A DNA stretch of 64,000 nucleotides, taken from NCBI GenBank assembly GCA_903925975.1, contig CAIYHG010000093.1, positions 1 through 64,000 on the forward strand. The letters are read 5' to 3'. This document shows, piece by piece, positions 1 through 56,301 of the stretch (positions are counted from its first letter, which is position 1; each line of letters starts with the position of its first letter). The notes under the pieces were generated by a model. The model saw nothing but the letters and a program-made list of their open reading frames with translations. It was not told the DNA's origin and did no database searches. Source of the stretch: an uncultured Acidobacteriia bacterium (GTDB taxonomy: Bacteria > Acidobacteriota > Terriglobia > Bryobacterales > Bryobacteraceae). A program made the position numbers and the translations under genes.

Positions 1-351
1 CCAACGGTAGCGACGCAAGGTAGCGCGGGCGCCTTTCTTCCTCTGCTCGCGGCGGCAACAAGAGACGATAGAGACTCCCAGGCGCGATTCGAACCGATCC
101 CCAATTCTGACGCAATCTGCCCGCCCGCTTACCAGCCTCATCACGCGCGAGCGCCGCGCCCCGCGGGAGGACGGCAGGGTTGGGATTTGAGGACGCCGGC
201 GATGGATAGCCGGGACAGGTACTCACAAGCGTGGCGAGCGCGAAAAGCCGCTTGCTGCCCCAGCCGAAGACAAGCGAATCGGCGGCTGATCGCGCGAATA
301 GCCGACTCCGGCGCCTCTCTGCCGCCGCCCGGGCGCGGCGGGCGTAAGTCC
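1..351. other. Intergenic leader without a recognisable gene
   Basis: No open frame here looks like a protein on either strand. A short stretch near 85-97 resembles a tRNA T-loop read on the minus strand, but no matching stem or acceptor arm can be built. The segment probably holds the upstream region of the fliW-csrA transcript; I see nothing else in it. Confidence 0.5.
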
Positions 352-379
352 TAAACTTTCCGGCCGCGACCGCCGATCT
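352..379 (+). promoter_or_regulatory. Candidate sigma-28 (FliA) promoter upstream of fliW
   Basis: TAAA at 352-355, a 16-base spacer and GCCGATCT at 372-379 match six of eight bases of the flagellar -10 element GCCGATAA. The spacing is identical to that of the better promoter upstream of flbD (7045-7072). The predicted transcript would start about 10 bases before the fliW start codon. The -10 mismatch makes this weaker than the other two flagellar promoters here. Confidence 0.45.
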
Positions 380-398
380 TCCGCACGGAGCGAATGTG

Positions 399-851
399 AT
401 GCCAATATTCGATACGGAGCGTTTTGGGCGTATCTCTTTTGAAGCGGAATCGGAAATCGAGTTTCCGGCAGGGTTGCCGGGTTTCGAGCGTCTCCGGCGT
501 TTCGTGGCGTTGACCCTGCCCGAAACGGAGCCGCTGATCTACCTCCAAAGCGTGGAGGAGCAGACGTGCCTTCTGACCGCGCCGGCCGGGGCGGTTGACC
601 CGGAATACCGGCTGTCGGCGGCCGCCGAGGATTTCGAAAGGATCGGGCTTCGGCCCCGCCGCGGCCCTGCCGCAAGCGACGGCGTCCTTTGCTTGTTCGT
701 GCTGTCGCTGCGCGAGCAGGGCGCTACCGCCAACCTGCTTGCGCCGATTCTGATCAACCCGCGCAACCGCAGGGGCGTGCAGGCGATCTCGCAGGAGGAA
801 TACTCGCACCAGCATGCGCTGGCGCCCTTAGAGGCCGCCGTATGCTCATGA
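399..851 (+). CDS. fliW: Flagellar assembly factor FliW
   Basis: FliW is a cytoplasmic protein that binds flagellin and antagonises CsrA, tying flagellin translation to its export. The 150-residue product has the family length and the N-terminal pattern of the family (FGRISF near residue 8, then FPAGLPGFERL). The ATG at 399 is preceded by GGAG at 387-390; a GTG at 396 is the alternative start. The end overlaps csrA by 10 bases, so the two are translationally coupled. The order fliW-csrA-flagellin is the arrangement of the partner-switching circuit studied in Bacillus. Confidence 0.9.
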   Translation: MPIFDTERFGRISFEAESEIEFPAGLPGFERLRRFVALTLPETEPLIYLQSVEEQTCLLTAPAGAVDPEYRLSAAAEDFERIGLRPRRGPAASDGVLCLFVLSLREQGATANLLAPILINPRNRRGVQAISQEEYSHQHALAPLEAAVCS

Positions 852-1273
852 TGTCGCGCCGCGAAGGGGAAAGCATTCTGGTCGGCGATGACGTTGAAAT
901 CGTGATCGCCCGGATTTCCGGCGCGCGCGTGAAGGTGGGGATTCGTGCGCCCCGGGAGACGCCGGTTATGGCGCGCGAAGCGCTGGTGGTGCGCGATGAA
1001 AACCGGGCGGCCGCAGCCGCCGCGCACGGCGGCCTCGTCGCACAACTTGTTTCGTCGTTGCGCGCTCCTCAAGTTTCGGCGCTCAGCTCCGATAAGGAAG
1101 CTGACCGGCAAGAAGCCGGAAATCGAAAACTGAAAGGAATTCAGTATGGCATTCTCGATCCAAACCAACGTCAACGCGCTTGTTGCGCAGGAAAACCTCA
1201 ACGTAAACAGCCAGTTTCAGAGCCAAACAATCCAGCGGCTCACCTCGGGCTACCGTATCAACCAGTCCGGTGA
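842..1273 (+). CDS. csrA: Carbon storage regulator CsrA with unusually long C-terminal frame
   Basis: CsrA is an RNA-binding dimer that blocks translation by binding GGA motifs near ribosome binding sites. Residues 1-62 align with the whole of a normal CsrA: MLMMSRREGESILVGDDV at the start, and the RNA-contacting arginine in VMAREA is R45, with one extra residue before it. Normal CsrA proteins have 60-80 residues. Here no in-frame stop occurs until 1273, giving 143 residues and a 128-base overlap with the flagellin gene in another frame. The extension is low-complexity and then arbitrary in composition. It may be a real extension, or a frameshift may have removed a stop: a neighbouring frame stops at 1131-1133, just before the flagellin start. 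Confidence 0.8.
   Translation: MLMMSRREGESILVGDDVEIVIARISGARVKVGIRAPRETPVMAREALVVRDENRAAAAAAHGGLVAQLVSSLRAPQVSALSSDKEADRQEAGNRKLKGIQYGILDPNQRQRACCAGKPQRKQPVSEPNNPAAHLGLPYQPVR
1069..1095 (+). promoter_or_regulatory. Sigma-28 (FliA) promoter of flagellin, inside the csrA frame
   Basis: TCAAGTTT at 1069-1076, an 11-base spacer and TCCGATAA at 1088-1095 are a near-consensus FliA promoter (consensus TAAAGTTT, N11, GCCGATAA). Initiation about seven bases downstream would give a flagellin leader of roughly 40 bases. The whole element lies in the open csrA frame, so flagellin can be transcribed on its own or by read-through from fliW-csrA. Confidence 0.8.
1094..1145 (+). promoter_or_regulatory. Flagellin mRNA leader with candidate CsrA-binding GGA motifs
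   Basis: The leader has three GGA motifs, at 1096-1098, 1118-1120 and 1136-1138. The last is the ribosome binding site AAAGGA, eight bases before the ATG. A five-base-pair hairpin (CCGGC at 1105-1109 with GCCGG at 1115-1119) presents the middle motif. This resembles the two-site CsrA control of hag in Bacillus. CsrA binding here is inferred from the motifs and from fliW-csrA next door. Confidence 0.45.
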
Positions 1274-2675
1274 CGACGCGGCGGGCCTGGCCATCGCGAA
1301 CAAGTTCCGCAGCGATACCGCCGAGCTCACTCAGGGCGTTCGCAACGCCAACGACGGCATTGCGCAGTTGCAGATCATCGACGGCGGCCTGAACAACATC
1401 AGCAAGATGCTCGACCGCATGAAGACGCTGGCGACGCAATCGGCGTCCTCCACGTACACGGGTGATCGCGGCACGCTGCAATCGGAATACAGCAAACTGA
1501 TTTCGGAAATCGACCGGCAGGCGAGTAACGTCGGGCTGGGCGGAGCATCGGGAACCGACCAGGGGCGCTTCGTGAAATCGCTGGGCGTCTATTTGGGCGG
1601 CGCCTCGCAGACGCAGGACAATGCCTCGGTGACTGTGGACCTTACCTCCGGGCGCGTGGATAGCGCCTCGCTGGGAATCTCCAGTACGAGCATTCAGGGC
1701 ACGATGCCGACCACCACGCTGGCCGCCGACGTCATCAATAAGAATGCCGCCAACGCCAAATTTCTGGAGAACACGAGCCAGAGCTTCACGATCGCCACGG
1801 CGGGGGTCGAAAAGACCTTCACAATCGACGGCGGATCCGACGGACTCACCAAAGACCAGTTCATCTCCGCCCTCAACGTACAGTTGAGCGGAAGCGGCGT
1901 TTCGGCTTCAGTAGACGCCACCTCCGGCAGCCTGAAACTGGCCAGTACGAACGGCTTTGTGTTCCAGGCCGTGAATGCGGGAACGGTTGCCGAAAACGCC
2001 GTAACGGCCGGGACATACCAGAAGAGCACGATAGTTTTCGACGGCGGCGTAGTGACGGACTACGATCCGGACTTGGCTGGCGGCGGCGCGGATTCCCGCG
2101 TGATGACAATCCGGGTGAATGGAACGGATCTCGCCGATACGGTCACCCTCGCCGGCGCGGCGCAGACGAAGGACCAGATCTTCACGTCGTTCAAGAACGC
2201 AGTGGCGGGAAGCGGCCTGGAAGTGATCCGGGTCGGGGACCACATGTACCTGCAGGGCGACAAGGCGTTTTCGGTAACCAATGTGTTCACCGACGACGGA
2301 GGAACGACCAGCGCCGGCGGACCCGCGAACCTGATGGCGAACGGGGCGCACGCCGGAGCGGGCACGGCGCCCGCCGCATCCGACGTGACCTCGGGCGCGA
2401 AGGACGCTCTGACGAAACTGGGCTTGGCGCTCGCCTCGCTCGGTACGGTGCAGGGCACGGTTGGAGCCGGCCAGAACATGCTGAACTATGCGGTGCGTCT
2501 GGCGCAATCGCAGATCTCCAACTTCTCAGCCGCCGAATCGCGCATCCGCGACGCCGATGTGGCGGCCGAAGCGGCGAATCTGACCAAGGCTCAGGTGTTG
2601 CAGCAGGCTTCGATGGCGGCGATGGCCCAGGCCAATTCCGCTCCACAGGCCGTGCTGGCGCTGCTGAGGGGCTAG
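1146..2675 (+). CDS. fliC: Flagellin
   Basis: This is the filament subunit, exported through the flagellar type III apparatus. Residues 1-140 form the conserved D0/D1 helices (INTNVNAL-like start, then RLTSGYRINQSGDDAAGLAI), and the last 70 residues form the C-terminal D1/D0 helices (SRIRDADVAAEAANLTKAQV, ending near SAPQAVLALLRG). Residues 150-430 are a Gly/Ala/Thr-rich variable surface region. The length of 509 residues is normal. The ribosome binding site is AAAGGA at 1133-1138. It is transcribed from the sigma-28 promoter at 1069 and followed by a strong terminator. Confidence 0.96.
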   Translation: MAFSIQTNVNALVAQENLNVNSQFQSQTIQRLTSGYRINQSGDDAAGLAIANKFRSDTAELTQGVRNANDGIAQLQIIDGGLNNISKMLDRMKTLATQSASSTYTGDRGTLQSEYSKLISEIDRQASNVGLGGASGTDQGRFVKSLGVYLGGASQTQDNASVTVDLTSGRVDSASLGISSTSIQGTMPTTTLAADVINKNAANAKFLENTSQSFTIATAGVEKTFTIDGGSDGLTKDQFISALNVQLSGSGVSASVDATSGSLKLASTNGFVFQAVNAGTVAENAVTAGTYQKSTIVFDGGVVTDYDPDLAGGGADSRVMTIRVNGTDLADTVTLAGAAQTKDQIFTSFKNAVAGSGLEVIRVGDHMYLQGDKAFSVTNVFTDDGGTTSAGGPANLMANGAHAGAGTAPAASDVTSGAKDALTKLGLALASLGTVQGTVGAGQNMLNYAVRLAQSQISNFSAAESRIRDADVAAEAANLTKAQVLQQASMAAMAQANSAPQAVLALLRG

Positions 2676-54405: not shown

Positions 54406-54837
54406 CTACTTGCCCGAAGATCCGAAACCGCCCTCTCCACGGCGGGAATCGGCGAGTTCGCCCTCTTCCCACTCCACCGCTTCGTAGCGGCTTACGATCA
54501 TCTGCGCGATGCGGTCCCCGGCCTGTATGGTGTATGGTTCGCGCCCCAGGTTCAGCAGGATGACGCGGATCTCGCCGCGGTAACCCGGGTCGATTGTTCC
54601 GGGCGCATTGGGCATGGTAATCGCGTGCTTGAGGGCCAGCCCGCTGCGCGGCCGCACCTGCGCTTCGAATCCGGGCGGCAGCTCTATCGTGAGCCCCGTT
54701 GAAACCAGCCGGGGAGCGCCGGGTTCGAGCGTGGCGTTCTCGACGGAGCATAGGTCCATGCCGGCGTCTTCTTCGGGTCCGTGGGCGTAGCGCGGCAAGA
54801 TGGCCGCTGGGTGAATTCGTCGGATGCGGATGCGCAC
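54406..54837 (-). CDS. dut: dUTP diphosphatase
   Basis: The enzyme hydrolyses dUTP to dUMP. The 143-residue protein has all five dUTPase motifs: DAGMDL, RPRSGLALK, GTIDPGYRGEI, AGDRIAQMI and RGEGGFGSSG. I start at the GTG at 54837, which gives the family length and N-terminus; the open frame runs on upstream opposite thyX. It is divergent from thyX, with 33 bases between the start codons. Confidence 0.93.
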   Translation of the reverse strand: MRIRIRRIHPAAILPRYAHGPEEDAGMDLCSVENATLEPGAPRLVSTGLTIELPPGFEAQVRPRSGLALKHAITMPNAPGTIDPGYRGEIRVILLNLGREPYTIQAGDRIAQMIVSRYEAVEWEEGELADSRRGEGGFGSSGK

Positions 54838-54843
54838 CCAGCT

Positions 54844-54864
54844 ATCATAACTTCCAGCTATGAT
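54844..54864. promoter_or_regulatory. Divergent -10 elements between dut and thyX
   Basis: TATGAT on the minus strand (54849-54844) ends six bases before the dut GTG, and TATGAT on the plus strand (54859-54864) ends six bases before the thyX TTG. The two are mirror images around a nine-base centre. Transcription would start at or near each start codon. No good -35 is seen for either. Confidence 0.45.
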
Positions 54865-54870
54865 ATCGTC

Positions 54871-56301
54871 TTGACCCCGAACAAACGCGTACTCACGCTC
54901 GCCCCCATCCCGCCCGAGAAGATTGCCTACGCCCTGGCTCGTTACAGCCGTTCGCCCGATTCGATCCGGGAATCCATCGAGTGGGTGCGCAGCCACGATT
55001 CCAGGAAATTTCTGGAGAGTTTCTACTTCCAATACGGGCACGCGTCCATTGCCGACCTGGGTCACGCCGTCATCTGCTTCGAGGGCATCTCCGAACTGGC
55101 GGCTACGGAAATTGAACAGGAGCCCCTCTGGGACGGCCAGGCGAAATCGTCGCGGTACCAGGATTTCTCGCGCTCGGGCTTCATCATGCCGGGCGAACTC
55201 GAAGGCGAAAACGCCGCGCTGTACCGACAGACTGGCGAGGCCCTGCTGGCCACCTACGGCGAAGTTAGGGAACTGGCTCGGGCGCGCCTCAAAGAGAAGC
55301 TGCCTCGTCCGGCCGACATGGCAGCCGACGCGTACGAGCGCAACTTGGCCGCGCGCGCCTTCGACGTGGCCCGCTACCTGCTGTTCTGGGGCGTGCCCAC
55401 GAACGTCGGCCAGGTGGTCAGCATCCGGACGATCGAGAAGCAGATTCGGCGACTCAAGGCCTCGCCTTACGAGGAACTCCGCAGCCTCGGCGACGAATTG
55501 GCGCAGGCCTGCGCCGCGCCGCCCGAGTGCGTGTGGGACGCTTCGTGGGAAGCGGAGCCGATCGCCCCCACGCTGGCGCGCCATTCGGAGCCGGATGCGC
55601 ATGCAGCGCGTGCGCGTGCGGACCTGCGGCTCTGGGCGGAACAGAATCTTCCGCCAGCGGCGGGCGCGGGGTCCGTGTATGTGGATCTGATGCGGCCGTC
55701 GAACATCCCCGCCGAAATCGCCGCTACGCTGCTTTACCCGGTTACCAACAGGCCGTTCCGCGAACTGTATGACATCGCCTGCGCCTGGAGCCCGCGGCAG
55801 AGAGCCGAGGTTTTCGACGTCGCGCTGGCCTCACGCACCAGGAGGGACGAGATTCTAGCCGGCTTCCGCGGCGGGCTCTACTGCTATGACCTGGTGATTG
55901 ACGTGGGCGCCTACCGCGATCTGCAGCGTCACCGGCGGTGCCAGAAATACCGGCAGGAATACGCCGGAGGCCTGGGTTTCGAGACGCCCGAACTCGTTGA
56001 GGAGGCTGGAGCCAGGGAAATCTACAACCGCGCAATGAGCCACGCCTTCGAAACCATGCGCCGGCTTCCGTCGCCCGCGTGCCACTATCTGCTGCCGTTC
56101 GGCGCCCGTTCGCGGTTCCTCTTCAAGATGGATTTCGCCGAAGTGGAATACGTCTCCAAGCTTCGCAGCGGAGTGAAGGGGCATTTCAGCTACCGCCGCA
56201 TTGCCTGGGAGATGAAATGCAAGATGGAGGAATTGGAGCCGGAGCTGGGCCGTTTGATCGAGGCCACTCCGCCGTGGATTGAAGACCCTCTACGCCGCTG
56301 A
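54871..56301 (+). CDS. thyX: Double-length FAD-dependent thymidylate synthase-like protein (ThyX family)
   Basis: ThyX makes dTMP from dUMP with FAD, NADPH and methylene-folate; ordinary subunits have 210-250 residues. This 476-residue protein contains two related halves. The first has FYFQYGHASIADLGH and QAKSSRYQDFSRSG; the second has DLQRHRRCQKYRQEYAGG and KLRSGVKGHFSYRRIAWEM. The N-half keeps SxRY but has QEP where RHR should be; the C-half keeps RHR but lacks SxRY. Start chosen at TTG 54871, since GTG 54781 would overlap dut by 57 bases; the start is uncertain. Confidence 0.85.
   Translation: MTPNKRVLTLAPIPPEKIAYALARYSRSPDSIRESIEWVRSHDSRKFLESFYFQYGHASIADLGHAVICFEGISELAATEIEQEPLWDGQAKSSRYQDFSRSGFIMPGELEGENAALYRQTGEALLATYGEVRELARARLKEKLPRPADMAADAYERNLAARAFDVARYLLFWGVPTNVGQVVSIRTIEKQIRRLKASPYEELRSLGDELAQACAAPPECVWDASWEAEPIAPTLARHSEPDAHAARARADLRLWAEQNLPPAAGAGSVYVDLMRPSNIPAEIAATLLYPVTNRPFRELYDIACAWSPRQRAEVFDVALASRTRRDEILAGFRGGLYCYDLVIDVGAYRDLQRHRRCQKYRQEYAGGLGFETPELVEEAGAREIYNRAMSHAFETMRRLPSPACHYLLPFGARSRFLFKMDFAEVEYVSKLRSGVKGHFSYRRIAWEMKCKMEELEPELGRLIEATPPWIEDPLRR

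Follow-up and report, generated by a model that had tools for sequence, protein, structure and literature searches.

A tandem ThyX that is probably a flavin-dependent thymidylate synthase with its active site divided between two fused domains

The 64,000-nucleotide stretch of acidobacterial DNA that we analysed (the window) encodes a tandem (double-Thy1) ThyX of 476 residues (54871..56301, plus strand), which is very probably a flavin-dependent thymidylate synthase in which two fused ThyX domains divide one active site between them. The sharing of the site is supported by the partition of catalytic residues between the halves and by their fold, and genome content gives strong support to a function as thymidylate synthase. 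We infer that the protein binds FAD and dUMP, that it is catalytically active, and that it assembles as a dimer of fused chains.

The frame at 54871-56301 is unbroken on translation. The likely start codon, although not a certain one, is TTG at 54871, because a frame opening at the GTG at 54781 would cross dut on the opposite strand. The protein has two stretches matching Thy1 (PF02511; E 1.6e-24, 87.2 bits versus a Pfam gathering cut-off of 24.8), both of which, as described below, superpose on ThyX structures. The NCBIfam thyX equivalog TIGR02170 also matches both halves, at 28.3 bits, i.e. below its cut-off of 87.9, although L131 and L203, which are also tandem proteins, do pass. Alignments, along with a match to Mycobacterium tuberculosis ThyX, place the N-terminal Thy1 domain (N-half) at approximately residues 1-240 (54871..55590, plus strand); the C-terminal domain (C-half), similarly placed by alignments and a match to Thermotoga maritima ThyX, covers approximately residues 268-476 (55672..56301, plus strand).

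In contrast to classical ThyX, the tandem enzyme is one chain of two diverged domains, neither with the full RHR-x7-S-x-R-Y motif; that motif is absent from either half of the window protein. The N-half motif, QEPLWDGQAKSSRY (residues 83-96; 55117..55158, plus strand), when aligned without gaps to RHRIASYNELSGRY of T. maritima, has Q-E-P in place of R78-H79-R80, but keeps S88, R90 and Y91 as S93, R95 and Y96. The C-half motif, RHRRCQKYRQEYAG (residues 353-366; 55927..55968, plus strand), also in ungapped alignment with T. maritima, has RHR, but E, A and G at the positions of S88, R90 and Y91. The original prediction, i.e. that of a tandem ThyX with its motif divided between the halves, is thus exact with respect to both the translation and the alignment. 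Overall, the N-half keeps H57, S59, S93, R95, Y96, R168 and R186 (H53, T55, S88, R90, Y91, R147 and R165 in T. maritima, the numbering used below) and lacks RHR, and the C-half keeps R353, H354, R355 and R432 (R78, H79, R80 and R174) and lacks SxRY, H53, T55 and R147. When both halves are pooled, the catalytic residues are the same as those of classical ThyX.

When one genome from each species was scanned, 80 relatives were found, almost all of which belong to Bryobacterales (Acidobacteriota); 64 of the 80 were aligned with the window protein. Every one of the retained N-half and C-half residues listed above is invariant in 65/65 rows of this Bryobacterales alignment. We then considered 77 diverse tandem proteins, comprising those from Acidobacteriota loci (60 fetched, with genes read directly) and those carried by phages and plasmids of Actinomycetota, Bacillota and Bacteroidota. 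The split is seen in 77/77, with SxRY (or SxRF) in the N-half only and RHR (RHN in one case) in the C-half only. In the N-half, S88, R90 and R147 are each present in 77/77, the T55 position is Ser or Thr in 77/77, and the Y91 position is Tyr in 75 and Phe in two; RHR occurs in 0/77. In the C-half, R78, H79 and R174 are present in 77/77 and R80 in 76/77, SxRY occurs in 0/77, no His is found at the H53 position, and the T55 position is Arg in 67/77; the C-half positions from R80 to S88 were counted by ungapped anchoring, the automatic alignment having gaps there. The invariance in 65/65 rows and the presence of the split in 77/77 proteins imply that the complementary split in the window protein is not due to chance. 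Proteins that were read after the 77, from a second Paenibacillus plasmid, Bacillus licheniformis and Thermomicrobium roseum, also have the split, with both of those from Bacillales having RHN instead of RHR. The H53 position is Asp in 13/77 N-halves. One tandem subgroup (L167-L171, L184-L186, L193, L194 and L196) has GDDS in place of GH-x-S in its N-half, i.e. a natural Asp at H53, and may be compared with the structure of the engineered T. maritima H53D variant (PDB 4kar).

These data bear on the proposal that one half is catalytic with replacement residues (e.g. the N-half, using other FAD-binding groups) and that the other is a structural or regulatory relic. The N-half does keep the catalytic Ser, Arg and Tyr together with R147, and an arginine near R174 is kept in some N-halves (43/77). 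However, conservation is no less strict for RHR and R174 of the C-half than for SxRY of the N-half (77/77 or 76/77), which is unlike a relic, and we consider this proposal very unlikely.

The observed partition can be compared with published assignments of ThyX residues to subunits. In one ThyX site, RHR and R199 (R174 in T. maritima) come from subunit A, S71 (T55) and R190 (R165) from subunit B, and S105 (S88), R107 (R90) and the lid residue Y108 (Y91) from subunit C (PMC6514825); the correspondence of M. tuberculosis to T. maritima numbering was matched here from aligned sequences. In an independent assignment, Ser88 lies on a different monomer from Gln75 and Arg182 (PMC3498832), and H53 sits on a third monomer (PMC11940539). 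In the tandem proteins, R78, H79, R80 and R174 (role A) are in the C-half, and H53, T55, S88, R90 and Y91 (roles B and C) are in the N-half. R165 fits the partition in the window protein and in Bryobacterales but not in the wider tandem family, where Arg is present at this position in the N-half of 41/77 and in the C-half of 31/77. Further departures from the partition are the arginine near R174 in 43/77 N-halves and the Asp at H53 in 13/77. The reading of a shared site is supported because each strictly conserved catalytic residue survives in the half predicted by its published role (PMC6514825).

In the classical site, the RHR motif of subunit A contacts the FAD phosphates and flavin, and its R174 dUMP; subunit B supplies T55 (S71) and, probably, H53 close to FAD; and subunit C supplies S88, R90 and Y91, the last of which is a lid over dUMP. 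Following an ancient duplication and fusion, the C-half may have kept role A and the N-half roles B and C, with residues that were no longer needed being lost from each. Since a classical ThyX site takes its residues from three subunits, two fused chains would be expected to assemble into a pseudo-tetramer with two sites, versus four in the classical enzyme. Such a pseudo-222 tetramer would have two complete sites, each with RHR from a C-half and the remainder from N-halves, and two dead ones. The arrangement is coherent when subunit A and subunit D, the latter contributing nothing to the site, are taken as being related by the true two-fold axis, with B and C both being N-halves; all sites centred on a C-half would then be complete and those centred on an N-half would miss all three residue sets. 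The original prediction was of a pseudo-dimer that could share one working site or, alternatively, of another flavin-dependent function; the published subunit roles support the sharing, but not the assignment of one site to one chain. It may be, although we regard this as a tentative and rather unlikely proposal, that a large ancient branch of ThyX is obligately asymmetric, with two of four sites permanently closed, and that the dead pockets, which have conserved residues of their own (such as the Arg found at the T55 position of most C-halves), have gained a role, e.g. in binding a regulatory nucleotide or a reducing cofactor.

Structural comparisons are consistent with both halves having the fold of the classical homotetrameric ThyX/FDTS enzymes, such as T. 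maritima TM0449 and M. tuberculosis ThyX. An AlphaFold2 model of the single chain without ligand, made with the 65-row alignment, has a pLDDT of 85.9 and a pTM of 0.87, with low confidence for segment 56-63 on the substrate side. In this model, superposition of N-half residues 4-241 on M. tuberculosis ThyX gives Z 9.9 (167 residues at 2.9 A), and that of C-half residues 268-470 on T. maritima ThyX gives Z 8.6 (142 residues at 3.0 A); both are well above the value of approximately Z 4.7 for the top unrelated rows in the comparison. A failure of the halves to superpose on ThyX had been named in advance as counting against the original prediction; both modelled halves superpose on solved ThyX chains. 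The N-half also matches, at Z 9.1, the divergent Thy1 fold of the atypical Corynebacterium glutamicum ThyX (PDB 3fnn, 3ge9), which differs in being single-domain and in that its organism reportedly depends on ThyA, whereas the tandem genomes are without ThyA. Foldseek by itself, given the entire chain, reached no better than E ~2e-3, probably owing to the presence of two domains in one chain, and a PDB sequence search with the whole window protein found no ThyX, whereas the fold comparison did.

The dut gene, identified by its frame and sequence, encodes a dUTPase, which makes dUMP; it lies divergently approximately 30 bp from thyX (54406..54840, minus strand). A dut-like gene adjoins the tandem gene in the same divergent arrangement in 77/80 Bryobacterales loci, so the pairing of the two genes noted at the outset is a conserved one. 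In the phage Tunturi_5, which has an acidobacterial host, the tandem gene follows that for a dCMP deaminase and is near that for a dUTPase, and a Euzebya plasmid has a dCTP deaminase gene in the vicinity of its tandem gene. dUTPase, dCMP deaminase and dCTP deaminase make dUMP or its precursor dUTP. The 30 bp gap between dut and thyX (54841-54870) contains the arms TATCAT and ATGATA, approximately 11 bp apart, and is a possible shared operator.

Thy1 was found in 113 of the 149 Acidobacteriota genomes searched. The 77 genomes with tandem ThyX, counted by two Thy1 matches (with approximately 57 fetched genes read as single frames), have no ThyA and one FolA; the 33 with single ThyX have no ThyA and eight FolA; three have partial Thy1 genes. 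Of the 36 without Thy1, 31 have both ThyA and FolA (for ThyA in 0/77 versus 31/36 genomes, Fisher p 7e-23). Tandem ThyX and ThyA are thus mutually exclusive across the 149 genomes of the phylum and, as with classical ThyX, the tandem enzyme replaces ThyA and mostly FolA in genome content. Mechanistically, dUMP would be methylated with methylene-THF through FAD; since THF would be regenerated by the composite ThyX, both ThyA and FolA would be unneeded.

At the level of the order, 36/40 relatives carry the tandem gene, and FolA above cut-off is absent from all. In at least 21 of these 36, all 21 being near-complete and one of them the single-contig genome G026, neither a significant ThyA nor a thymidine kinase was found. 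Without ThyA and thymidine salvage another source of dTMP is needed, and no candidate for this other than the tandem protein was found; the latter is therefore probably the dTMP source of these organisms. The original prediction had called for a search for a separate thyA or normal thyX; in the window genome (86% complete), neither ThyA nor single-domain ThyX was found. This genome does encode thymidine kinase, and salvage is therefore possible there.

Some further observations concern individual genomes. The window assembly has a second tandem ThyX (L001; G000:C68, 470-1906, minus strand), 64% identical to the first, on a 3.4 kb contig; its nearest relative among the loci compared is only approximately 70% identical, and it could be a paralogue or come from a contaminant contig. 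One genome of the same genus has, in addition to its tandem gene, an ordinary single-domain ThyX (L085; G001:C641, 1426-1950, minus strand), on a contig stretch that ends early. The weak ThyA-family matches of some genomes (E 1e-6 to 1e-25) were left out of the ThyA counts, since they cover the profile only in part and the one that was examined is a methanogen-type thymidylate synthase-like protein fused to a pterin-binding domain. Locus L093 (697-2202, plus strand) of the near-complete Bryobacterales-family genome G022 encodes a protein in which a domain resembling the thymidylate synthase of methanogens (TIGR03283, with a score below cut-off) is joined to a pterin-binding DUF4346 domain; this genome is without ThyX, ordinary ThyA and thymidine kinase. 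Genomes G074, G115, G140, G148 and G180 have partial ThyA-like matches and are without ThyX or full ThyA.

The genome content also bears on the substrate. As a flavin-dependent uracil-type methylase, the tandem protein could use a different substrate (e.g. UMP, as with PolB) or make another C5 derivative, with dTMP coming from elsewhere. As reported for PolB, enzymes with the Thy1 fold can change substrate (PMC5003785), PDB 4p5a/4p5b are among the structural matches, and the low TIGR02170 score reflects strong divergence. However, the mutual exclusivity with ThyA across the phylum, the many tandem-bearing relatives without recognised ThyA or thymidine kinase, the adjoining dut, and the dUTPase and dCMP deaminase genes nearby in phage make such a role very unlikely. 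That the protein is catalytically dead, with a regulatory or nucleotide-sensing role, as the lack of a complete motif in either half might suggest, is the least credible proposal, given the conservation of all parts of one full site over deep divergence and the replacement of ThyA and FolA in genome content.

Restriction of the tandem gene to Bryobacterales was considered and rejected, since the search of 149 genomes finds it across the phylum. A viral contig scan with the Bryobacterales alignment found no relative; tblastn against annotated phages did find tandem relatives. The window protein (residues 17-457) matches the PHROGs family phrog_36506, that of the thymidylate synthase of Microcystis phage Ma-LMM01 (E 3e-30, ~27% identity), which is likewise tandem, of equal length and with the same split; it differs in being a phage gene and has no annotation beyond thymidylate synthase. 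A tree was built from 28 N-halves and 28 C-halves together with 12 single-domain ThyX; one of its branches sets off all the N-halves (support 30) and another all the C-halves (support 87). Two independent fusions are disfavoured by this grouping of N-halves with N-halves and C-halves with C-halves, albeit with modest support. The simplest reading of the sequences, which we favour but which is not proven, is a single ancient duplication and fusion followed by spread as a unit, including to phages and plasmids. A single-domain ThyX of another acidobacterium (L148; G126:C1:4377340-4379590, 168-2087, minus strand) has an apparent intein of approximately 400 residues with an HNH-like centre, which lies directly behind its RHR-type motif (here KHR) and ahead of SxRY.

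There is a parallel in the herpesvirus monomeric dUTPase, which is unrelated to ThyX in fold and reaction, but in which a multi-subunit enzyme has been duplicated and fused, with the active-site motifs split between the halves. Within the open-licence literature we found no paper describing a tandem or double-domain ThyX or a split site. RefSeq names the tandem proteins FAD-dependent thymidylate synthase; the composite-site tandem ThyX is thus a widespread ThyX variant that is already annotated as thymidylate synthase. A genome survey reported ThyX in 6/6 and ThyA in 0/6 Acidobacteria (PMC5954106), probably counting genes of the tandem kind as ThyX.

ThyX is an antibiotic target, and studies of its three-subunit site have relied for the most part on mutagenesis and crystallography. 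The tandem ThyX provides an evolutionary experiment in which the contributions of the subunits have been sorted onto two different domains; it permits single-site mutants that are impossible in a homotetramer and can tell how many sites the enzyme requires. Genome surveys that count ThyX mix two architectures, and the tandem enzyme points to the source of thymidylate for much of a major soil phylum.
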